The notes under the pieces are model-generated. The model had not been told where the DNA came from and searched no databases. It saw only the letters and a list, made by a program, of their open reading frames with translations. A program made the translations under genes and the position numbers. A stretch of DNA of 64,000 nucleotides from Tangfeifania diversioriginum. GTDB lineage: Bacteria > Bacteroidota > Bacteroidia > Bacteroidales > Prolixibacteraceae. Of the stretch, positions 15,653 to 26,745 are shown one piece after another; within the stretch, counting starts at the first letter, position 1; each line of letters opens with the position of its first letter. The stretch covers positions 1 through 64,000 of the forward strand of contig NZ_FQZE01000020.1 of the NCBI RefSeq assembly GCF_900141875.1, given 5' to 3'.

Positions 15653-15976
15653 ATGGAACTGATTAGAAAAAATATTTCTGAAATTAAAAAACTCTGCAGC
15701 AAGTATAATGTTGCCGAGTTGTATGTTTTTGGTTCGGTTACCAAAGGAAATTTTTCACCTTCAAGTGATATCGATTTTCTTGTTCAGTTTGAAAATGTTG
15801 ACCCACGGGAATATTTTGATAATTATATGGATTTTAAAGAAAAACTGGAAACTTTGCTCTCCAGAGAAGTTGATTTAGTGGAAATTCAGACCGTGAAAAA
15901 TCCGATTCTCAAGCGTTCAATTGACCGTGATAAAATATGCTTATATGGACGAGAAGATTCTAAAATGGCTGTATGA
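15653..15976 (+). CDS. MNT-domain antitoxin, MntA-like (module 1)
   Basis: A 107-residue minimal nucleotidyltransferase. The active-site pattern GSX10DXD is intact (GSVTKGNFSPSSDID, residues about 26-40). In HEPN/MNT systems MntA-type antitoxins AMPylate the HEPN RNase and silence it. The gene overlaps the following HEPN gene by 32 bases. It lies 49 bases after porX. A second pair occurs at 25843-26467 on the other strand; the two MNT proteins differ widely, so they are separate acquisitions or an old duplication. Confidence 0.85.
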   Translation: MELIRKNISEIKKLCSKYNVAELYVFGSVTKGNFSPSSDIDFLVQFENVDPREYFDNYMDFKEKLETLLSREVDLVEIQTVKNPILKRSIDRDKICLYGREDSKMAV

Positions 15977-16286
15977 TATTAGAAATGCAATCAACGAGAT
16001 AGATGGTTATTTTGCCAATGTTCCATTGGATTTTACACAATACCAAAACAATACTATTTTAAAAAGGGCAGTGGAAAGAGATTTGGAAATTATTGGTGAA
16101 GCTGTGAATCGAATTCTCAAAAAAGAACCCGGTTTTCCTATTGAAAATGCCAGGCGGATTGTAGGATTGCGAAATCAGATAATTCATGCTTATGACAGTA
16201 TTTCTGACGAAAATGTCTGGGCAATCATTATAAAACACATTCCTCTTTTAAAGTCAGAAGTTGAAGATATTATCAATGATAATTGA
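15945..16286 (+). CDS. HEPN-domain (DUF86) toxin, HepT-like (module 1)
   Basis: A 113-residue all-helical HEPN protein. The catalytic RX4HXY motif is present as RNQIIHAY near residue 79, and the VERDLEIIGEAVNRI helix is typical of DUF86. HepT toxins are metal-independent RNases that are silenced by the MNT partner. I start it at ATG 15945, inside the antitoxin 3' end; an in-frame ATG at 15921 would add eight residues. The tight overlap implies fixed stoichiometry. Confidence 0.85.
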   Translation: MDEKILKWLYDIRNAINEIDGYFANVPLDFTQYQNNTILKRAVERDLEIIGEAVNRILKKEPGFPIENARRIVGLRNQIIHAYDSISDENVWAIIIKHIPLLKSEVEDIINDN

Positions 16287-17751: not shown

Positions 17752-18555
17752 TTAACTTTTTGCCGTGGTTTTTGTGTTTCCGGTGATTTTTTTGGTGAAA
17801 TCGCGGATGGAATTTTGGAGTTCATTTCCCGACTGAAGCGCTTTCACAAATGCACTGCCAATAATCGCTCCGCCGGCATATTTGCAGGCATTGGCAAAGG
17901 TGTCGTGGTCGGAAATTCCGAAACCAATCAGCCGCGGGTTTTTCAGGTTCATTTGCTGAATCCGTTCAAAATAATCCTGTTGAAAATCTTCCACTTTTTT
18001 GCCGGCGCCAGTGGTCGCTGCCGATGAAACCATGTAAATAAATCCGTTTGATGCCTTGTCGATTTGCCGGATACGTGCTTCCGGTGTTTGCGGTGTAATG
18101 AGTAGAATGTTGTGCAGATTGTTTTTTGCGAAATTTTTCTTGTAGTGTGCTTCGAACTCTTCCAGTGGCAGGTCAGGCAAAATGATTCCGTCAATTCCGG
18201 TTTCGCTGCATTTTTTGCAAAACTGTTCCAGGCCAAATTGCATTACAGGGTTGAAATAGCCCATTAAAATAAGCGGAATTTTTACCGATTCGCGAATGTT
18301 TTTCAGTTGCTCGAAAAGCAAATGAAGTGACATGCCGTTTTTCAGCGCAATTTCGCTGCTGTGCTGAATAGTTGGCCCGTCGGCAGTGGGATCCGAAAAC
18401 GGAATGCCGATTTCAATGAGGTCCACCCCGTTTTTTTCCAGTTCCTGAATGATTTTAACGGTATCGTCCAGGTTGGGAAATCCGGCCGTAAAATAAACCG
18501 AAAATATATTCTCTTTTTTCGTTTCGAAAAGCCGATTGATTCTGTTTTTTTTCAT
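17752..18555 (-). CDS. trpA: Tryptophan synthase alpha chain
   Basis: TrpA cleaves indole-3-glycerol phosphate to indole and glyceraldehyde 3-phosphate, passing indole to TrpB. About 267 residues; the catalytic Glu and Asp lie in IEIGIPFSDPTADGP and GIILPDLPLEEF. I start at ATG 18555 (MKKNRINRLFE), since the 19 extra upstream codons fall inside a palindromic repeat. It is the last gene of trpEGDCFBA and is separated from trpB by that repeat. Confidence 0.95.
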   Translation of the reverse strand: MKKNRINRLFETKKENIFSVYFTAGFPNLDDTVKIIQELEKNGVDLIEIGIPFSDPTADGPTIQHSSEIALKNGMSLHLLFEQLKNIRESVKIPLILMGYFNPVMQFGLEQFCKKCSETGIDGIILPDLPLEEFEAHYKKNFAKNNLHNILLITPQTPEARIRQIDKASNGFIYMVSSAATTGAGKKVEDFQQDYFERIQQMNLKNPRLIGFGISDHDTFANACKYAGGAIIGSAFVKALQSGNELQNSIRDFTKKITGNTKTTAKS

Positions 18556-18570
18556 TGTATTATTTTTATT

Positions 18571-18650
18571 GTCATTTCGACCCGCCAGCTGGCGGGAGGA
18601 GAAATCTGCCATTAAGAAAGAGATCCCTCCTCATTCTTCGTCGGGATGAC
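18571..18650. repeat. GTCATTTCGA palindrome in the trpB-trpA gap
   Basis: An imperfect palindrome starting GTCATTTCGA, with GGAGAAATCTG inside, and ending TCGGGATGAC. It belongs to a family with further members in this operon at 20632-20711, 21201-21302, 21319-21395 and 24063-24159, and at 36171-36371. Confidence 0.8.
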
Positions 18651-18658
18651 AGTGCTGT

Positions 18659-19852
18659 TTAATACCCAAAATAATTTAAATACGTTTCCATATCCTTGTT
18701 GCCGCTGCCCGAAAGATTGATTACGTTCACGTCGTCCGGTTTCATTTTTATTTTTTCGAGGGCAGCCAGAGCATGCGCCGATTCCAGCGCCGGAATGATT
18801 CCCTCTTTTTGGGTGAGTAAGAGGGCAGCCTTTAATACTTCCTCATCGGTTGTCGCCATGTATTTTGCCCGTCCGGTTTTAAAAAGGTGCGCATGCAGCG
18901 GTCCGATTCCGGGATAATCGAGCCCGGCAGAAATGGAGTACGGTTCGGTAATTTGCCCGTCGCGGTTTTGCATGAGCATGGTGCGGCTGGCATGCAGCAC
19001 GCCCGGTGAACCCACCAGCAATGTGGCAGCAGTTTCTTTGGTTTCCACTCCTTTCCCGGCGGCTTCCACGCCAATCAGTTCCACCTGTTCATCGTCCAGA
19101 TAATGGTAAAAAGCCCCGGCGGCATTACTTCCACCACCCACACATGCCAGAATCCGGGTTGGAAATTCGCTGCCGGTTTTTTCCAGGAGCTGGCTTTTCA
19201 TCTCTTTGCTGATGACCGACTGAAACCGGGCCACCATGTCGGGGAACGGGTGCGGCCCTACCACCGAACCGATGATGTAGTGTGTATCTTCCGGATTGTT
19301 AATCCAGTCGCGCATGGCTTCGTTGGTGGCATCTTTCAGCGTTTTGTTGCCGCTGTGAACGGGAATTACTTTGGCGCCCAGCATCTTCATTTTTTTCACG
19401 TTGGGAGCCTGCCGCTGCACATCGAGGTCGCCCATGTAAACTACGCATTTTATTCCTTTGAGTGCGCAAACCGTTGCGGTGGCCACTCCGTGCTGACCGG
19501 CGCCGGTTTCGGCAATTATGCGGGTTTTACCCAGTTTTTCTGCCAGCAGAATTTGCCCTACCGTGTTGTTCAGCTTGTGCGAACCTGTGTGATTCAAATC
19601 TTCGCGTTTCAGGTAAACTTTTGTACCGTAATGTTCCGATAACCGGCCGGCAAAATAGAGCGGAGACGGCCGCCCCACGTAATCTTTCAACAACTGGTCG
19701 AACTCTTTTTTGAATTCCGGCGATTCGATAATCTCCAGATACCGGTGCCGCAGTTCGTCGATGTTGGCATACATCATTTCGGGAATCCACGCCCCGCCAA
19801 ACTCACCGTAATATCCTTTTTCGTTTACGTTGTATTTCATGTATTTCATCAT
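18659..19852 (-). CDS. trpB: Tryptophan synthase beta chain
   Basis: TrpB condenses indole with serine using pyridoxal phosphate. A 397-residue protein with the PLP lysine in HTGSHKLNN, the phosphate-binding [10 protein letters not shown] and the N-terminal [11 protein letters not shown]. The start may be 19852 or the in-frame ATG at 19840 ([12 protein letters not shown]), which matches relatives better. The 3' end is followed by a palindrome and trpA; trpF lies upstream with an intervening palindrome. Confidence 0.96.
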
Positions 19853-19854
19853 TT

Positions 19855-19917
19855 TCTATGTGTTCTATGTGCCTATGTGGTATCTCTCTTAACCACAGTA
19901 GGCACATAGGTCACATA
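19855..19917. repeat. CTATGTG palindrome in the trpF-trpB gap
   Basis: An inverted repeat with arms CTATGTGTTCTATGTGCC...GTGGT and ACCACAG...GGCACATAGG...CACATAG. The last codons of trpF (ATG TGA) lie within it. This is a different repeat family from the GTCATTTCGA palindromes. Confidence 0.7.
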
Positions 19918-20537
19918 GTTATTCTGGTAATAAACTCTTTTAATTTTCCAACATTTTTCACCCCCGGTTCATCTTCAAAACCGCTGTTCAGGTCAATTCC
20001 GAAAAGCCGCGGGTGTTGCAGTTTTTTAATTGCTTCCGCATCTTCCGGTCCGATTCCTCCGCTTAAAAAGAAGGGAACGGTTCCCTGGTATTTTTCAAGG
20101 ATTTCCCAGTTGAATTTTTTGCCGGAACCACCCGGCAATTCCGTTTTTGTGTCGAACAAAAAATAATCAACTGTCGTTTCATATTCCCGCAGTTTTTCAA
20201 ACTGGAATTTCTCACTGAGGTTGAAAGCTTTTATCACTTTTAGCCCTTGGTCTTTCAAAAGCAGGCAGGTTTTCGGATTTTCTTTTCCATGCAGCTGCAC
20301 GAATTCAAAACCAAGATTTTTGGTAAGGCCTAAAATCTCAAACGCGTTTTCATCCACAAAAACGGCCACTTTCGTTTTGGCTGAATTGAAAAGCCCCGGT
20401 TCGGTATTTTCACCCACAAACCGTTTTGATTTCGGGTAAAAAATGAATCCCAGGAAATCAACCGGCAGTTTTTCCACTTCCTCGCGGTTTTGGTTGAATT
20501 TCATTCCGCAGACTTTTATTTTCAAGTTTTTAATCAT
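19911..20537 (-). CDS. trpF: Phosphoribosylanthranilate isomerase
   Basis: TrpF catalyses the Amadori rearrangement of phosphoribosylanthranilate. About 208 residues with the catalytic Cys in IKVCGMKF, then FVQLHGKE and the phosphate-binding LSGGIGPEDA. I start at ATG 20537 (MIKNLKIKVCGM). An in-frame ATG at 20573 would add 12 residues, but these overlap a repeat. The 3' end extends into a palindrome. Cytosolic, fourth step of the trp pathway in order after TrpD. Confidence 0.93.
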   Translation of the reverse strand: MIKNLKIKVCGMKFNQNREEVEKLPVDFLGFIFYPKSKRFVGENTEPGLFNSAKTKVAVFVDENAFEILGLTKNLGFEFVQLHGKENPKTCLLLKDQGLKVIKAFNLSEKFQFEKLREYETTVDYFLFDTKTELPGGSGKKFNWEILEKYQGTVPFFLSGGIGPEDAEAIKKLQHPRLFGIDLNSGFEDEPGVKNVGKLKEFITRITM

Positions 20538-20568
20538 CAAATTTTTTTTTAAAGTTTCATCCGTGCTT

Positions 20569-20750
20569 GTCATTTTGAGTTTTCACCCAATTTTATGGGC
20601 ATAATGAGACGATGACAGGCTAATTATTGCTGTCATTTCGACGAGTATCCGAGGAGAAATCTGTTTCAAATTCAGGGATTTCTCATCCGGAATACCGGGA
20701 TTCGAAATGACATCAGCGTATGGTTTTCTAATTGTTCTCATTATTAGTTA
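20569..20750. repeat. Long composite palindrome, copy 1
   Basis: A repeat of about 180 bases starting GTCATTTTGAG and running through CCCAATTTTAT, ATAATGAGACGAT and a GTCATTTCGA...TCGAAATGAC palindrome (20632-20711). The same unit in the same order is found at 36171-36371. It lies between trpF and the GIY-YIG gene. Confidence 0.75.
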
Positions 20751-20763
20751 TTTATAAAAATAT

Positions 20764-20791
20764 GTCATTGGCACGAGGCACGAGGAGAAAT
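20764..20791. repeat. Left arm of a split palindrome around the GIY-YIG gene
   Basis: GTCATTGGCACGAGGCACG followed by AGGAGAAAT. It is the inverted partner of 21153-21182 (shared blocks TTTCTC, TCGTGCCTC and AATGAC). The GIY-YIG gene lies exactly between the two arms. Confidence 0.65.
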
Positions 20792-20797
20792 CTGTCA

Positions 20798-21100
20798 CTA
20801 TAAAGCTTCATAGATTTCATTATTCAAAAACCACCAATCCGGATTGAATCTGTTTATTAATTTCTCCTTCTTTTCTCTTCTCCATTTTTTTATTTCCTTT
20901 TCTCGTTCAATAGCCTCATTTATGTCTTGCAAATGTTCGTAATAAATCAGAAAATGACAATTGTATTTTTTTGAAAAACCGGGCATTAATCCATGTTCAT
21001 GCTCATAAATTCTTCGTTGTAAATCATTTGTAACTCCAAGATAAAGAACTGTTTTGTTCTTGTTTGTAACAATGTAAATGAAATAATTATGGTCTCTCAT
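20798..21100 (-). CDS. GIY-YIG nuclease-like protein inside the trp operon
   Basis: A 100-residue single-domain GIY-YIG protein. The motif pair appears as YIV...YLG (residues about 9-22), the conserved Arg as DLQRRIYEH, and the metal-binding Glu as AIEREKEIKKW. It ends with the NPDWWFL motif usual for the small stand-alone UvrC/Slx1-like family that occurs in many copies in Bacteroidota. The biological role is unknown. It interrupts trpCF on the same strand and lies between two inverted palindrome arms, so it looks like an inserted cassette rather than a tryptophan gene. Confidence 0.85.
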   Translation of the reverse strand: MRDHNYFIYIVTNKNKTVLYLGVTNDLQRRIYEHEHGLMPGFSKKYNCHFLIYYEHLQDINEAIEREKEIKKWRREKKEKLINRFNPDWWFLNNEIYEAL

Positions 21101-21152
21101 ATTTTTGTTAATGTTCTAATCAAATTACAAAATGTACTGCTATTTAAACAGG

Positions 21153-21182
21153 TTTCTCAGTCGTGCCTCAGATTCGAAATGA
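21153..21182. repeat. Right arm of a split palindrome around the GIY-YIG gene
   Basis: TTTCTCAGTCGTGCCTC then AGATTCGAAATGAC. Inverted relative to 20764-20791. Confidence 0.65.
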
Positions 21183-21200
21183 CAGCTAATCAAAGTATTT

Positions 21201-21302
21201 GTCATTTCCCGCGAAGCGATCCCTTCCGGGAGACGAGTTTGCGAGGAGAAATCTCTAACTATTTGTAGAGATTCCTCGTCGCTTCGCTTCCTCGGAATGA
21301 CA
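21201..21302. repeat. GTCATTTC palindrome upstream of the GIY-YIG gene
   Basis: Begins GTCATTTCCCGCGAAGCGAT, has GAGGAGAAATCTC and its inverted AGAGATTCCTC in the middle, and ends GGAATGACA. Member of the GTCATTTCGA palindrome family. Confidence 0.75.
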
Positions 21303-21318
21303 GCAGTGAACAACGTTT

Positions 21319-21395
21319 GTCATTTCGACGAAGAATGAGGAGAAATCTAATCTTTTCAGCAGATTTCTCTCCCGAGCACTCGGGATCGAAATGAC
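21319..21395. repeat. GTCATTTCGA palindrome overlapping the trpC 3' end
   Basis: Arms GTCATTTCGA...GAGGAGAAATCT and AGATTTCTC...TCGAAATGAC. The right arm (21359-21394) encodes the last 12 codons of trpC. Confidence 0.85.
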
Positions 21396-22174
21396 AGTTC
21401 TGCAATCAGCTTTCTGCATGCCTCCCCCGGATTTTCAGTTTTCATAAAAGTTTCACCAATCAAAAATCCTTTAAAACCGTGCTTCCTTAAATAATGAATG
21501 GTTTCAGTATCGGCCAGTCCGCTTTCCGAAATTTTAACGAACCGCTCGGTAATGAACTTAGCAAGTTCCACCGACGTTTCCACATCCACTTTAAAGGTTT
21601 TCAGGTTGCGGTTGTTCACGCCGACAATATCCACAAAGTCATTCAACTTTGTCAGTTCTTCAGCATTGTGCACTTCCATCAAAACTTCCATGCCCAGACT
21701 TTTGGCTTTTTGGGCCAGTGTTTCCGCCAGTTCTTTTTCCAGGCATGCGGCAATGAGCAGAATCACATCGGCGCCAAACGCTTTGGCTTCCACAATCTGG
21801 TAGGTGTCAATCATAAAATCCTTGCGAAGAATCGGAATTTCAGGATTTACCTCGCGTGCCTTGGCCAGGTTGGCCAGTGTTCCGCCAAAATACTCGTAAT
21901 CGGTTAAAACCGACAATCCGGATGCGCCGGCATCTGCATATCCTTTAGTCACTTCTTCCACTTTCACCCCAAAGTTGATTTCACCTTTGGAAGGCGATTT
22001 CTGCTTAAATTCGGCAATAATTCCTGTAGAATTGTGTTTCAGCAAAGCCGCTTTCAGCGAGTTGCATTTCCGCTGGTAGCCCGGATATTTTTTGAGCTGT
22101 GCCACCGGAATCACTTTTTTCTGCCGGGTAACTTCCACCTTTTTTGTTTCCACTATTTTTTCGAGAATGTTCAT
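21356..22174 (-). CDS. trpC: Indole-3-glycerol phosphate synthase
   Basis: TrpC closes the indole ring from carboxyphenylaminodeoxyribulose phosphate. A 272-residue TIM barrel with catalytic residues in IAEFKQKSPSKG, ILRKDFM and GVNNRNLKTF, and the phosphate site SESGL. The last 12 residues (SFRSRVLGREIC) are encoded by the right arm of a palindromic repeat and are not family sequence; the native protein would end near KLIAEL. The start ATG at 22174 is well placed. Confidence 0.95.
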   Translation of the reverse strand: MNILEKIVETKKVEVTRQKKVIPVAQLKKYPGYQRKCNSLKAALLKHNSTGIIAEFKQKSPSKGEINFGVKVEEVTKGYADAGASGLSVLTDYEYFGGTLANLAKAREVNPEIPILRKDFMIDTYQIVEAKAFGADVILLIAACLEKELAETLAQKAKSLGMEVLMEVHNAEELTKLNDFVDIVGVNNRNLKTFKVDVETSVELAKFITERFVKISESGLADTETIHYLRKHGFKGFLIGETFMKTENPGEACRKLIAELSFRSRVLGREIC

Positions 22175-22187
22175 GTTTCTTGTTTAG

Positions 22188-22327
22188 CACCGTCCTTCAG
22201 GGCGGTGTTGCGTTTAAATTAATCTGCGACCTGGAATTTCCGAAAAATGGTATTTTAAATTTTACCATTTTTCGGAAATTCCTTCTATATCTTATATTCT
22301 TAATTTTCACCGCCCTAAAGGACGGTG
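22188..22327. repeat. Nested double palindrome between trpD and trpC
   Basis: Outer arms CACCGTCCTTCAGGGCGGTG (22188-22207) and CACCGCCCTAAAGGACGGTG (22308-22327) are inverted with one mismatch. Inside are perfect 20-base inverted arms at 22233-22252 and 22263-22282 around a 10-base AT loop. Each outer arm is itself a small palindrome. It looks like a MITE-type element. It would form a strong structure in the trp mRNA. Confidence 0.85.
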
Positions 22328-22334
22328 TTGTTTT

Positions 22335-23321
22335 TTAGACAACCACCGCCTTCAGTTTTTGTAACGCTTTTTCGCTTTTCAGCGATTCTCCGGCCATTTC
22401 CACACATTCCGGCAAACTTTTTTCAGGATAAACCAAATGCAGGCCCACGGCGGCGTTGGCTACCACCACGTTGTTTTGTTCCGCTGAACCTTTTCCTTCG
22501 AGAATATGCATAAAAATCCGGGCTGCCTCCTCAATGGAATCTCCGCCATAAATGCTTTCGGGATGAATTTTTTCAAACCCAAAATCAGCGGGCGCAAGAT
22601 ACCCCTCGGTTTTCTTCTGAGCAAAACGGGTGGAATCGGTCAGTGAAACCTCATCGTACCCGTCGTTGCTGTTAATAACAGTAAAGTTCACGTTGAGTGT
22701 TTCGTACACATTTTTGTAATGGTCAAAATTTTCGGCATTGTTTACACCCAGCACCTGGTATTTTGGCGAAGAAGGATTTATCATCGGCCCGAGAATATTG
22801 AAAAAGGTCTGCACTTTCAGGGCACCGCGGACCGGCGCAATGTATTTCATAGCCGGGTGGAAAAGTGGTGCGTGCATAAAACAGAAGTTGCTTTTGTCCA
22901 AATCGTTTTTCAGTTTGGCCGGATCGTTGCTGAATTTGTACCCCAGCAGTTCCAGCAGGTTCGACGAGCCGCTGGTTGACGAAACCGCGTAGTTGCCGTG
23001 TTTGGCTACATTTACCCCGGCGCCGGCAATAATAAAACAGGCCAGTGTGGAGATGTTAAACGTGTTTTTTCCGTCGCCGCCGGTTCCCACCACGTCGATG
23101 GCGTTGTAATCCGAAAGGTCGGTCACCAGGCACAGTTCGGCCATGGCATCGCGAAACCCGGCCAGCTCATCCGAAGTGATTGGCCGCATTTTAAAAACTG
23201 TGAGAAACGAGGCGAACTCCACCTCGCTGTGCATTCCTTTTCCCACTTGCAGCAAACTTTGTCGTGCCTCAGCGCGGGAGAGCGTGTTTCCTTCAAATAA
23301 ATATTCAAGTGTCTTTTTCAT
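22335..23321 (-). CDS. trpD: Anthranilate phosphoribosyltransferase
   Basis: TrpD joins anthranilate to phosphoribosyl pyrophosphate. About 328 residues with the PRPP site VGTGGDGKNTFNIST, the KHGNYAVSS motif and FNILGPMINPS. I start at ATG 23321 (MKKTLEYLFEG); an in-frame ATG three codons upstream is possible. It is a separate protein from TrpG here, not fused as in some enterics. Confidence 0.95.
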   Translation of the reverse strand: MKKTLEYLFEGNTLSRAEARQSLLQVGKGMHSEVEFASFLTVFKMRPITSDELAGFRDAMAELCLVTDLSDYNAIDVVGTGGDGKNTFNISTLACFIIAGAGVNVAKHGNYAVSSTSGSSNLLELLGYKFSNDPAKLKNDLDKSNFCFMHAPLFHPAMKYIAPVRGALKVQTFFNILGPMINPSSPKYQVLGVNNAENFDHYKNVYETLNVNFTVINSNDGYDEVSLTDSTRFAQKKTEGYLAPADFGFEKIHPESIYGGDSIEEAARIFMHILEGKGSAEQNNVVVANAAVGLHLVYPEKSLPECVEMAGESLKSEKALQKLKAVVV

Positions 23322-23440
23322 TGCAATCAACTATTTTTTGCGGTGCGTGCAACCTTTCTTCTTTTCTGAGCTGATGTGGACGCACCTTGATTTTCTACTT
23401 AAACTAATTAATGCCCAGGTTAAAGCCAGGGCCTGTTTTT

Positions 23441-24046
23441 TTACCTTTTGGGATCCCGTTTTATTATCGGAGAGGAAGGGGCTTTTAACCAGTTTGTAAT
23501 CATTTTTTCACCCAGTGGTGTTAAAACCGATTCGGGATGAAACTGGACGCCTTCCACATCGAATGTTTTGTGTTTCATCGACATAATCATTCCATCTTTG
23601 TCGAAACTGGTGATGTCAAAACAATCGGGCAGGTTTTCCTTTTCCACAATCCACGAGTGGTAACGGCCCACATCGAATGAACCAGGTAAATCTTTAAAAA
23701 GAACGGATTGATTGGCAGTTCGTTTTACCGGCGTGGCCATTCCGTGAATCACACGGTTCATGTTGCGCAGTTTCCCGCCAAAAGCTTCCCCGATGGCCTG
23801 GTGCCCCAAACAAACACCCAGCATGCTTTTTTTCGGTGCATATGCTTTAATAATATCCAAAAGTAACCCGGATTCTTCAGGTAGTCCCGGACCCGGAGAA
23901 AGCACAATTTTGTCGTACTTTTCGATATCTTCCAATGCAATTTCATCGTTGCGAAACACATCCACCGGCAACCCCGAAATCTTTTTGATGGCATGCACCA
24001 GGTTGTAGGTGAATGAGTCGTAATTGTCTATAACCAGTATTTTCAT
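23441..24046 (-). CDS. trpG: Anthranilate synthase glutaminase subunit
   Basis: TrpG releases ammonia from glutamine for TrpE. About 201 residues, class I glutamine amidotransferase; the nucleophile Cys is in LGVCLGHQAIG and the His-Glu pair in VQFHPES. N-terminus ILVIDNYDSFTYNLV is diagnostic. I start at ATG 24046 (MKILVIDNYD); seven upstream codons are in frame but unconserved. A palindromic repeat separates it from trpE. Confidence 0.95.
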   Translation of the reverse strand: MKILVIDNYDSFTYNLVHAIKKISGLPVDVFRNDEIALEDIEKYDKIVLSPGPGLPEESGLLLDIIKAYAPKKSMLGVCLGHQAIGEAFGGKLRNMNRVIHGMATPVKRTANQSVLFKDLPGSFDVGRYHSWIVEKENLPDCFDITSFDKDGMIMSMKHKTFDVEGVQFHPESVLTPLGEKMITNWLKAPSSPIIKRDPKR

Positions 24047-24062
24047 TTTCTTTGTTTTTGTT

Positions 24063-24159
24063 GTCATTTCGACGAGTATGCGAGGAGAAATCTGCTGTAA
24101 TGAAACAGATTTCTCCTCCTGCGTCGTCTCCCGAATGGGATCACTTCGCGGGAAATGAC
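24063..24159. repeat. GTCATTTCGA palindrome in the trpE-trpG gap
   Basis: Arms GTCATTTCGACGAG...GAGGAGAAATCTG and CAGATTTCTCCTCC...GGAAATGAC. It ends two bases from the trpE stop and begins 17 bases before the trpG start, filling the whole gap. Confidence 0.8.
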
Positions 24160-24160
24160 A

Positions 24161-25570
24161 TCAGTTAATTTCTTTCGCCATCTCAATTGCTTTTTTCAAT
24201 GCTGCCAGCTTGTTGTTTACTTCCTGCAATTCGTTTTCTTCTTTCGAATCGGCTACAATTCCGGCGCCGGCCTGGTAAAACAGGCGGTTGTTTTTGCTCA
24301 GAAATGAACGAATCATGATGGCATGATTTACTGAGCGGTCGAAGCCGAGGTAGCCGATGCAGCCGCCGTAGTAGCCGCGGTTCTGGTTTTCGTACCGGTC
24401 GATGAGTTCCATCGCTTTGTATTTGGGCGCCCCGGAAAGCGTGCCTGCCGGGAACGTTTCGCCCAGTACTTTTATCAGGTTAGTGTCGTCGGTAATATCG
24501 CCGGTTACCTGCGAAACCAGGTGGATCACATGCGAATAAAACTGCACTTCGCGGTAAGTTTCTACTTGCACATTTTCGGCGTTCCGGCTCAGATCGTTTC
24601 GTGCCAAATCCACCAGCATCACGTGCTCCGCATTTTCTTTCGGATCTTTGCTGAGTTTTTCTGCCAGTTCGCGGTCCCGGTCATCGTTACCGGTCCGTTT
24701 AAATGTTCCGGCGATGGGATGGATGGTTGCTTTGTTGTTGTTTACACGTAACTCCGCCTCCGGACTGGAACCAAAAATCCGGTACGAACCATAATCGAAA
24801 TAAAACAAATAAGGCGACGGATTAATGGAACGCAGCGCGCGGTACACATTAAAATCATCGCCTTCAAACTCCTGCGAAAACTGGCGACTCAGCACAATCT
24901 GGAACACATCGCCGCGGTAACAGTGTTCCTTTCCTTTGGTCACCATCTGTCGGTATTCTTCGTCGTTGATATTTGAAGTTTCATTGTTTTTAGGCTGAAA
25001 TTTGACGGTGGAAAAGTTCAGGTTGATGAGCAAATGATGAATGTAATCCATTTGCGATTCTTCGCCTTCCTTCAGGTTTTCCACCATGTGAATCTGATTT
25101 TTGTGATGGTCGATGGCCACGATGTATTTGTAGAAACAGTATTTTACTTCCGGAATTTCGTAGGCTTCCTTTTTTTCGGAAGTAAACTGAATGTTCTCGA
25201 AATGCTGTACCGCATCGAAGTTGATGTAACCGAACAGTCCGTTGGCCGGCAGTTCAATTTCATCAGGGAAAACATTGAAAAGCTGAAAAAAGGCATCCAG
25301 CTCGTCGTGCAGTTTTCGTTTTTCTGAAAGCATGAACTTTTCTTTTTCTTTCCCCGGAAGTTCGCGGCTCACCTTGCTGTTATTCACCGTGAAACAGGCC
25401 ACCGGATTGAAACACACAAAGGAATAAGCATTCTCATGCCCGTGGTAATCCGAGCTTTCCAGCAGAATGGCTTTTGGATAAAGTGTTCGCAACCGCAGGT
25501 AAATGCTCACCGGCGTTACCGTGTCGGCCAGGATTTTGCGAACTACAGGTTTAAAATTTAGTTTTTCCAT
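24161..25570 (-). CDS. trpE: Anthranilate synthase component I
   Basis: TrpE converts chorismate plus ammonia to anthranilate. A 469-residue protein with the chorismate-binding core: FQIVLSRQF, PSPYLFYFDYG, IAGTFKRTGND, DLARNDLSRN, AGTLSGAPKYKAMELI and GYYGGCIGYLGFD. The N-terminal region near LLESSDYHGHENAYSF carries the Leu-Leu-Glu-Ser motif associated with feedback inhibition by tryptophan. It is the first structural gene of the operon, preceded by two leader-peptide attenuators (25721-25846 and 26479-26613). Confidence 0.96.
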   Translation of the reverse strand: MEKLNFKPVVRKILADTVTPVSIYLRLRTLYPKAILLESSDYHGHENAYSFVCFNPVACFTVNNSKVSRELPGKEKEKFMLSEKRKLHDELDAFFQLFNVFPDEIELPANGLFGYINFDAVQHFENIQFTSEKKEAYEIPEVKYCFYKYIVAIDHHKNQIHMVENLKEGEESQMDYIHHLLINLNFSTVKFQPKNNETSNINDEEYRQMVTKGKEHCYRGDVFQIVLSRQFSQEFEGDDFNVYRALRSINPSPYLFYFDYGSYRIFGSSPEAELRVNNNKATIHPIAGTFKRTGNDDRDRELAEKLSKDPKENAEHVMLVDLARNDLSRNAENVQVETYREVQFYSHVIHLVSQVTGDITDDTNLIKVLGETFPAGTLSGAPKYKAMELIDRYENQNRGYYGGCIGYLGFDRSVNHAIMIRSFLSKNNRLFYQAGAGIVADSKEENELQEVNNKLAALKKAIEMAKEIN

Positions 25571-25604
25571 TTTATTATTTTGATTGTAATTGCTTCATTT
25601 TCTG

Positions 25605-25637
25605 ACCCCCTAAATCCCCCGAAGGGGGACTTGGGGA
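25605..25637. repeat. CCCCTAAATCCCCC palindrome in the trpE leader
   Basis: A G/C-rich imperfect palindrome, CCCCCTAAATCCCCC followed by GAA and GGGGGACTTGGGG, between terminator 2 and trpE. It is of a type often seen scattered in Bacteroidota genomes. Confidence 0.7.
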
Positions 25638-25720
25638 AACTGCCATTTATTAAGCTATATAATTTATTTCTGTCATTTTATACATTTCTTCTCTCTTTCC
25701 TCTCCCTCTCCGGAGGGGCT

Positions 25721-25759
25721 AAAAAAAACGGCTCACCGTGATTCGATGAGCCGTTTTTT
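25721..25759 (-). terminator. Attenuator 2 terminator upstream of trpE
   Basis: On the minus strand AAAAAACGGCTCA, an 11-base loop and TGAGCCGTTTTTTTT form a 13-bp stem with a run of eight T. It lies 18 bases after the stop of leader peptide 2 and 150 bases before trpE. Its loop contains TCACGG, complementary to CCGTGA in the leader (25788-25793). A clear antiterminator pairing with the stem was not found by eye. Confidence 0.85.
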
Positions 25760-25777: not shown

Positions 25778-25846
25778 TTACTTCTCTTCACGGATTTGTA
25801 AAAAGTTGCTGCGCCACCACCAGTTTGTATTTTTGAATAATTTCAT
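25778..25846 (-). CDS. trpL: trp leader peptide 2 (three consecutive Trp codons)
   Basis: A 22-codon ORF beginning MKLFKNTNWWWRSNF and ending REEK. Codons 9-11 (25814-25822) are TGG TGG TGG. A terminator hairpin follows after 18 bases and trpE after that, the layout of a ribosome-mediated tryptophan attenuator. The ATG overlaps the stop codon of the upstream HEPN gene as ATGA, so ribosomes finishing hepT could re-initiate on the leader. The peptide is presumably non-functional as a protein; ribosome stalling at the Trp codons would sense charged tRNA-Trp. Confidence 0.88.
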   Translation of the reverse strand: MKLFKNTNWWWRSNFLQIREEK

Positions 25847-26172
25847 TTTAACAATTCTTTCACCTCTTTTTTTAGCACAGGAAGATGATTTTTAATGGTT
25901 CCCCAAATAATTCCGTCATCAATTTTATCATACCCGTGAATCACCCTGTTTCTCATTCCAATTATTCTTTTCTCACTCGAGAGCTTAATTTTGTCATTCA
26001 GTTTTAGGAGCGCTTTTGTTGCTTCCCCAATTATTTCGAATTCTCTTTCAACAGCTCTCCTCACCATTTTGTTCTTCTGATATTGAAAGAAATCAATATT
26101 TTCAATGTACTTTTCAATCGACTCTGCCGATTCCAAAATGTCATATAAGTATTTCCTGATTGTGTCTGTCAT
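25843..26172 (-). CDS. HEPN-domain (DUF86) toxin, HepT-like (module 2)
   Basis: A 109-residue HEPN protein with RX4HXY intact as RNRVIHGY near residue 77 and the VEREFEIIGEATKAL helix. It is the presumed RNase toxin paired with the MNT protein upstream, whose gene it overlaps by 32 bases. Its TGA stop overlaps the ATG of trp leader peptide 2. Together with leader 1 upstream, this places the toxin gene between two tryptophan attenuators. It is only distantly similar to module 1 at 15945-16286. Confidence 0.85.
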   Translation of the reverse strand: MTDTIRKYLYDILESAESIEKYIENIDFFQYQKNKMVRRAVEREFEIIGEATKALLKLNDKIKLSSEKRIIGMRNRVIHGYDKIDDGIIWGTIKNHLPVLKKEVKELLK

Positions 26173-26467
26173 AAATCAGCGTTTTACTTTCTTCAACTGA
26201 TTGAATAAAATAGGGATTTGATAATGAATTGACCGTAACCAGATCAACATCCCGACCCAAAATTTCTTCCAGGTTTTCAGCCAGTAAAAAATAGTTTTCA
26301 GCATAATCTTCCGGTTTCAGGTTTTCAAATGAAACCAAAAAATCAACATCGCTATCAGCGGAAAAAGAAGAGTTAGTGGCTGAACCAAAAATCCATAATT
26401 TTTCAACTTTTAATTTTTCGCAAAGCGATGTAATTTTCCGAATGCTATTTTTTATTATTTCTGTCAT
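26141..26467 (-). CDS. MNT-domain antitoxin, MntA-like (module 2)
   Basis: A 108-residue minimal nucleotidyltransferase with GSX10DXD intact (GSATNSSFSADSDVD, residues about 27-41). By family it should AMPylate and inactivate the HEPN partner. It begins 12 bases after the U-run of attenuator 1, so its expression should require read-through of that terminator. It overlaps the HEPN gene by 32 bases, the same overlap as in module 1. Confidence 0.85.
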   Translation of the reverse strand: MTEIIKNSIRKITSLCEKLKVEKLWIFGSATNSSFSADSDVDFLVSFENLKPEDYAENYFLLAENLEEILGRDVDLVTVNSLSNPYFIQSVEESKTLIYDRHNQEILI

Positions 26468-26478
26468 TTCTTATAAAC

Positions 26479-26507
26479 AAAAAAACCTGCCCTTTTGAGG
26501 AGCAGGT
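26479..26507 (-). terminator. Attenuator 1 terminator upstream of mntA
   Basis: On the minus strand ACCTGCTC, loop, GGGCAGGT form an 8-bp stem with one G-U pair, followed by a run of seven T. The 5' arm and loop include CTCCTCA (26496-26502), which pairs perfectly with TGAGGAG at 26551-26557 just after leader peptide 1. Confidence 0.85.
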
Positions 26508-26613
26508 CCATGTTGAAATATCTTTTAAAAAATACCAATATGGCTATAAACTCCTCACTTTAAGTAAGAAGACCCCACCACGGCAGCCATATTGTATTTA
26601 TATTTTTAATCAT
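26485..26613 (-). promoter_or_regulatory. Tryptophan attenuator 1 (leader RNA)
   Basis: The leader RNA holds three competing structures. P1 pairs ATACAATATGGCT (26585-26597, across the first Trp codon) with AGCCATATTGGTAT (26532-26545). The antiterminator pairs TGAGGAG (26551-26557) with CTCCTCA (26496-26502). The terminator is at 26479-26507. A ribosome stalled at the Trp codons leaves TGAGGAG free; one that reaches the stop at 26560 covers it and lets the terminator form. This is the classical attenuation logic. It may be a member of the Bacteroidota trp leader motif proposed from comparative genomics, which I could not check. Confidence 0.82.
26560..26613 (-). CDS. trpL: trp leader peptide 1
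   Basis: A 17-codon ORF, MIKNINTIWLPWWGLLT, with Trp at codons 9, 12 and 13. It begins about 31 bases after the estimated transcript start and is followed by the antiterminator and terminator described separately. Its first part (M-x4-N-T-x-W) resembles that of leader peptide 2 (M-x4-N-T-N-W), which suggests common descent. The gene downstream is mntA, not a trp gene, which is unusual. Confidence 0.85.
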   Translation of the reverse strand: MIKNINTIWLPWWGLLT

Positions 26614-26650
26614 TTGTATCGAATTCAGTTCAAAAGAATGAATTTTTTTT

Positions 26651-26658
26651 CAAAAATA
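26651..26658 (-). promoter_or_regulatory. Candidate trp/mntA promoter -7 box
   Basis: On the minus strand TATTTTTG matches TAnnTTTG. It lies 38 bases before leader peptide 1, an expected distance for a short leader transcript. No standard -33 box was found at 19-21 bases. Confidence 0.4.
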
Positions 26659-26745
26659 AAACAAAACAACAATTTTTTTTGCGGAACATTCATCTGTATT
26701 TATCGTAATAATGGTTGGCAATTGAACATCTAAAAATCAACCGCT

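Follow-up and report, generated by a model that had tools for sequence, protein, structure and literature searches.

Leader 1 of the Tangfeifania diversioriginum trp operon: a probable ribosome-mediated attenuator, first of two in series, overlapping a conserved hairpin

Leader 1, on the minus strand of the window (the whole stretch of 64,000 nucleotides analysed, contig NZ_FQZE01000020.1), is very probably a ribosome-mediated transcription attenuator, the first of two placed in series, and it overlaps a conserved hairpin that would have an additional, translation-independent role. It is the upstream member of two serial trp attenuators preceding trpEGDCFBA; upstream of trpE the order on the minus strand is leader 1, terminator 1, mntA, hepT, leader 2, terminator 2, trpE. 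The anatomy of leader 1, its covariation, the co-occurrence of its parts and the separability of the hairpin were shown by sequence comparison. The features of the surroundings were as follows:

17752..25570, minus strand: trp operon, complete, in the order trpE-trpG-trpD-trpC-(GIY-YIG gene)-trpF-trpB-trpA
24161-25570, minus strand: trpE (Pfam)
23441-24067, minus strand: trpG (Pfam)
22335-23330, minus strand: trpD (Pfam)
21356-22174, minus strand: trpC (Pfam)
19911-20573, minus strand: trpF (Pfam)
18659-19852, minus strand: trpB (from its own sequence)
17752-18612, minus strand: trpA (from its own sequence)
25721..25753, minus strand: terminator 2 with U-run (from sequence; equivalent in relatives)
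25788..25793, minus strand: leader-2 antiterminator segment CCGTGA, the partner of which, TCACGG, occupies loop and 3' arm of terminator 2 (covariation test)
25778..25846, minus strand: leader peptide 2 (WWW), MKLFKNTNWWWRSNFLQIREEK and stop (from sequence; kept before trpE in relatives)
25843..26172, minus strand: HepT-like ribonuclease, putative toxin (Pfam PF01934)
26141..26467, minus strand: MntA-like nucleotidyltransferase, putative antitoxin (Pfam PF18765/PF01909)

A small gene with a GIY-YIG endonuclease domain (window 20798-21100) sits between trpC and trpF.

Leader 1 itself was resolved into the following parts:

26631..26665, minus strand: likely promoter of the kind used in Bacteroidota, with TTTTG some 25 bases upstream of TTCTTTTG, as judged from the sequence
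26560..26613, minus strand: leader peptide 1, MIKNINTIWLPWWGLLT and stop, 17 codons with Trp at 9, 12 and 13, kept in about 55 distinct relatives
26532..26598, minus strand: conserved hairpin, consisting of P1, a loop strand with GTGGTGGGG and the inner stem P2 (alignment, covariance-model matches)
26594-26585 with 26545-26536, minus strand: stem P1; extension 26598-26595/26535-26532
26571-26564 with 26558-26551 (span 26551..26571), minus strand: P2, the attenuator stem 1:2, CUUCUUAC/GUGAGGAG
26557-26551, minus strand: antiterminator segment 2, TGAGGAG, also the 3' side of P2
26496..26502, minus strand: antiterminator segment 3, CTCCTCA, in the terminator 5' arm and loop (covariation)
26479..26506, minus strand: terminator 1 with U-run; hairpin 26506-26486, U-run to 26479

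The preliminary description of this leader had reported a 17-codon ORF with Trp codons 9, 12 and 13, and this was confirmed on the minus strand at 26613-26560 (codon 9, 26589-26587; codon 12, 26580-26578; codon 13, 26577-26575); the TGAGGAG reported behind the stop is found at 26557-26551, after TAA and AG, and is complementary, as had been stated, to CTCCTCA (26502-26496), which occupies the 5' arm and loop of the terminator. The stem pairing the region of the first Trp codon is likewise present, but in place of the 13 bp given earlier it has 14 pairs with a one-base bulge, its 3' side lying at 26545-26532 (P1 strands AAUAC-AAUAUGGCU with AGCCAUAUUG-GUAUU). Left out of the earlier attenuator reading were the classical 1:2 hairpin P2, and the serial second switch with the toxin-antitoxin pair between the two. 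P2 and the antiterminator compete for TGAGGAG. The fold of leader 1 was calculated at −42.1 kcal/mol, vs −28.2 kcal/mol for shuffled sequences (z −4.1; 0/200); a T-rich block resembling the candidate promoter is found at the same distance in relatives.

Relatives were gathered with TrpE, with the leader DNA, with extracted stretches and with the pattern CAATATGGCTN{1,4}TGGTGGGG in 84,980 species genomes; exact-pattern matches outside Bacteroidota in these genomes had neither the 3' arm nor a trpE match, and look chance-like. Leaders were placed in the ORF+ class when an in-frame ATG stands 7-10 codons before the first Trp codon and a stop 9-15 codons past that codon; ORF- leaders have no start codon and no terminator, and leader 2 begins directly behind their hairpin. 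The comparison covered about 55 distinct ORF+ leaders, from Prolixibacteraceae, and 17 distinct ORF- ones; the ORF+ covariation set has 58 rows, the stretch used for deduplication being slightly different. In most relatives leader 1 lies 220-470 bases before trpE, while in the window mntA-hepT and leader 2 intervene.

A terminator follows the hairpin in every ORF+ leader; ORF, stop and terminator are jointly present in all ORF+ leaders and jointly absent in all ORF- leaders. The complete attenuator logic proposed in the preliminary description is thereby supported, since every ORF-bearing leader also has the Trp codons, the stop, the antiterminator and the terminator, and no ORF-bearing relative was found in which the TGAGGAG/CTCCTCA pairing or the Trp codons had gone. 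Covariation across relatives, the check suggested there, was found for the antiterminator at z about −7: for ORF+ leaders, duplexes between the segment before P1 and the 5' arm and loop of the leader's own terminator averaged −9.5 kcal/mol vs −7.7 kcal/mol with permuted partners (z −7.0; 0/20,000), with z −7.2 when permutation was confined to the WLPWWG group, these being tests that only partly remove shared ancestry, with antiterminator changes of this kind recurring across genera. One antiterminator pair is seen as G-C, T-A, C-G and A-T, i.e., in all four Watson-Crick combinations, and two further pairs are each seen as G-C and A-T. Because of this covariation, the pairing in leader 1 is taken to be more than chance.

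Folding with a modelled ribosome was carried out on the transcript up to segment 3, the 3' terminator arm being not yet made. With Trp12 or Trp13 occupying the A site the antiterminator reached a mean pair probability of 0.97, and with Trp9 there, 0.82; the value was 0.00 for the stop codon in that position and 0.01 for the ribosome-free transcript, in which P1 and P2 form instead. The earlier proposal that a ribosome at the stop hides TGAGGAG and one at Trp12-13 frees it is borne out by these constrained foldings before the 3' terminator arm. In equilibrium folding of the complete leader 1, the terminator was favoured in every case, even with the ribosome at Trp12/13 (0.60-0.96), so the choice of structure must fall during transcription (co-transcriptional kinetics), as in the E. 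coli model.

Regulation by Trp may accordingly be pictured in terms of ribosome position. With plentiful Trp, the ribosome would arrive at the leader-1 stop and cover TGAGGAG, and terminator 1 would form; with charged tRNA-Trp scarce, it would stall at Trp12/13 and open P1 and P2, the freed TGAGGAG would pair with CTCCTCA, and RNA polymerase would continue from the leader-1 promoter into mntA-hepT and then encounter leader 2 as a second switch. From the leader-1 promoter, trpE would be reached only when both switches had been passed; a promoter between the two leaders, in or upstream of mntA-hepT, may let trpE bypass leader 1. The switch would overlap the hairpin (P1, the GGUGGGG strand, P2 and a U-rich tail), the extra role of which would be independent of translation. 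Two serial attenuators for one amino acid could steepen the response compared with one.

The hairpin behaves as a separable module. Its covariance model gave matches in 102/140 genomes of the family, most second matches being the opposite strand at the same place; outside Prolixibacteraceae there was no strong match in 295 genomes sampled across the order, the best having E about 1e-3. The P1 arms are about 99% identical in the 17 distinct ORF- leaders, and near-invariant in ORF+ leaders too; in ORF- leaders the flanks are 39-49% identical over the 24-30 bases upstream and 37% over the 23 bases downstream. The TrpE tree (66 rows) requires three changes for the ORF- state, all forced by well-supported branches; L083, from another genus (G018), is a further ORF- case outside this tree. 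In L082 and L083 the spacing between the first TGG and TGGTGG has ceased to be divisible by three, so that the conservation of the hairpin preserves something other than the Trp frame. Synonymous positions are likewise frozen in ORF+ leaders: counting from the first Trp, the third codon (CCG), the sixth (GGT) and the seventh (CTT) are the same in 41/41 WLPWWG leaders, and the tail GGTATTTTT is also conserved. Conversely, L017 and L018 have kept the Trp leader, antiterminator and terminator upstream of trpE and have no P1 stem (pairing in L017, GTAAGGAG/CTTCTTAC; L018 is a close variant). Hairpin and switch can thus be lost separately, and the first-Trp stem is more than a component of the switch, a point missing from the earlier reading: it persists where ORF and terminator are lost, and two relatives with the attenuator lack it.

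Recent decay as the explanation of the conserved hairpin was ruled out by the 39-49% identity of the flanks and by long TrpE branches. Translation from a non-AUG start in ORF- species was rejected as well: several of them have in-frame stops a few codons upstream, the positions of downstream stops vary, and L082 and L083 have a broken frame.

The invariance of the P1 arms may point to recognition by sequence, and the U-rich tail to transcriptional pausing or weak termination. The hairpin (CAAUAUGGCU ... GGUGGGG ... P2 ... AGCCAUAUUG, U-rich tail) may tentatively be regarded, at a little short of an even chance, as an RNA regulatory element in its own right in the Prolixibacteraceae trp transcript, recognised by its sequence (by a protein, by a pausing polymerase or by a ligand) and hosting the overlapping attenuator in most species; its retention without the switch points to a second layer of trp control. 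A rival reading, in which leader 1 acts chiefly as a non-coding RNA element (a protein-binding, pause or weak-terminator hairpin), with the ORF secondary and the attenuator built around an older hairpin, was judged unlikely. It would account for the near-identity of the hairpin in ORF- lineages after at least three independent changes, for the broken frame, for the frozen codons and for the conserved tail; however, ORF+ leaders maintain start, stop position, antiterminator and terminator together, with covariation, and L017 and L018 retain the attenuator in the absence of P1.

Leader 2 contains three adjacent Trp codons and directly precedes trpE; its anatomy is of the Bacteroid-trp kind. In the CCGTGA/TCACGG pairing, too, own partners surpass those of other species (permutation, z −7.0). 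Neither leader of the window reaches the gathering threshold of the Rfam covariance model RF01692 (Bacteroid-trp); relatives L087 and L091 exceed it, at leader 2. Two trp leaders in series are found in many Prolixibacteraceae relatives and are the rule in this family, to which exact-pattern matches and the TrpE tree assign the window; the TrpE of the window groups with that of a Mariniphaga isolate. In L089, of another family of the order, two tandem WWW leaders stand upstream of trpE, each with its own terminator; this looks like an independent tandem arrangement. An inverted repeat, CCCCCTAAATCCCCCGAAGGGGGACTTGGGG (window 25603-25645), lies between terminator 2 and trpE, and C/G-rich stretches resembling it occupy the same place in L003, L008 and L012.

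Between the two leaders, adjacent MNT and HepT-like domains were identified by Pfam, as is characteristic of HEPN/MNT pairs. The start of mntA lies 11 bases behind terminator 1, and the TGA of hepT overlaps the ATG of leader 2 (ATGA). In G062 the layout is the same, but a frame break and a stop disrupt hepT, both leaders being intact; L168 has mntA at the same place, its contig ending inside the pair; L003 and L004 have short hepT remnants at the same place and retain both leaders. From these states the pair reads as what looks like an old insertion, repeatedly lost. It is placed where Trp supply should gate it: if mntA-hepT is devoid of its own promoter, Trp starvation should raise its transcription. 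A second MntA/HepT-like pair was noted just beyond the far end of the trp operon (window 15653-16286, plus strand), and the genome contains a third HepT homologue in another place (G000 C76).

That leader 1 of the window has been captured by mntA-hepT and mainly serves this module, leader 2 alone controlling trp, appears quite improbable. The 11 bases between terminator 1 and mntA leave little space for a separate promoter, hepT overlaps the start of leader 2, and the arrangement recurs in G062 and, as far as mntA is concerned, in L168; against this, dozens of relatives without the pair conserve leader 1, the hepT remnants of L003 and L004 show the pair lost and both leaders staying, and in G062 the leaders outlasted an interrupted hepT. 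Direct, T-box-like sensing of tRNA-Trp by the hairpin, for which its UGG triplets and a UGGC able to meet the GCCA 3' end might be quoted, is scarcely credible, complementarity to the tRNA-Trp of the same genome being no better than that of shuffled sequences (96/300 as good) and Rfam giving no T-box match.

Leader-peptide attenuation in Bacteroidota is largely prediction-based, and the Prolixibacteraceae case adds covariation together with parts that have been lost or separated in nature. Each of the trp attenuators alone is of a known kind; none of the open-access literature searched was found to describe trp attenuators in tandem in Bacteroidota, and as far as that literature was searched, two same-amino-acid attenuators in series and a separately conserved hairpin inside the first are new. 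The Bacteroid-trp leader (Rfam RF01692; Weinberg et al. 2010, PMC2864571) is a Trp-codon leader before trp genes of Bacteroidota; leader 1 differs from it in peptide, hairpin, terminator and antiterminator geometry, and does not match its model. In Salmonella mgtCBR (PMC3641672) a single leader carries a pair of short ORFs, and control of transcription has been proposed for both; the two switches there answer different signals (ATP, proline), whereas both leaders of the window carry codons for one amino acid. The HEPN/MNT toxin-antitoxin system MntA-HepT (PMC7641770) has adjacent nucleotidyltransferase and HepT-like genes, as in the window, where, as a difference, a trp attenuator stands on either side of the pair and terminator 1 immediately precedes it. 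With E. coli trpL (Rfam Trp_leader class), the model of which gave no detectable sequence match to leader 1, leader 1 shares a leader peptide with adjacent Trp codons, the stems 1:2, 2:3 and 3:4, an intrinsic terminator and a stop placed so that the ribosome covers segment 2; it differs in the extra enclosing stem P1 with invariant sequence, in being followed by a second attenuator and in its host, a member of Bacteroidota.
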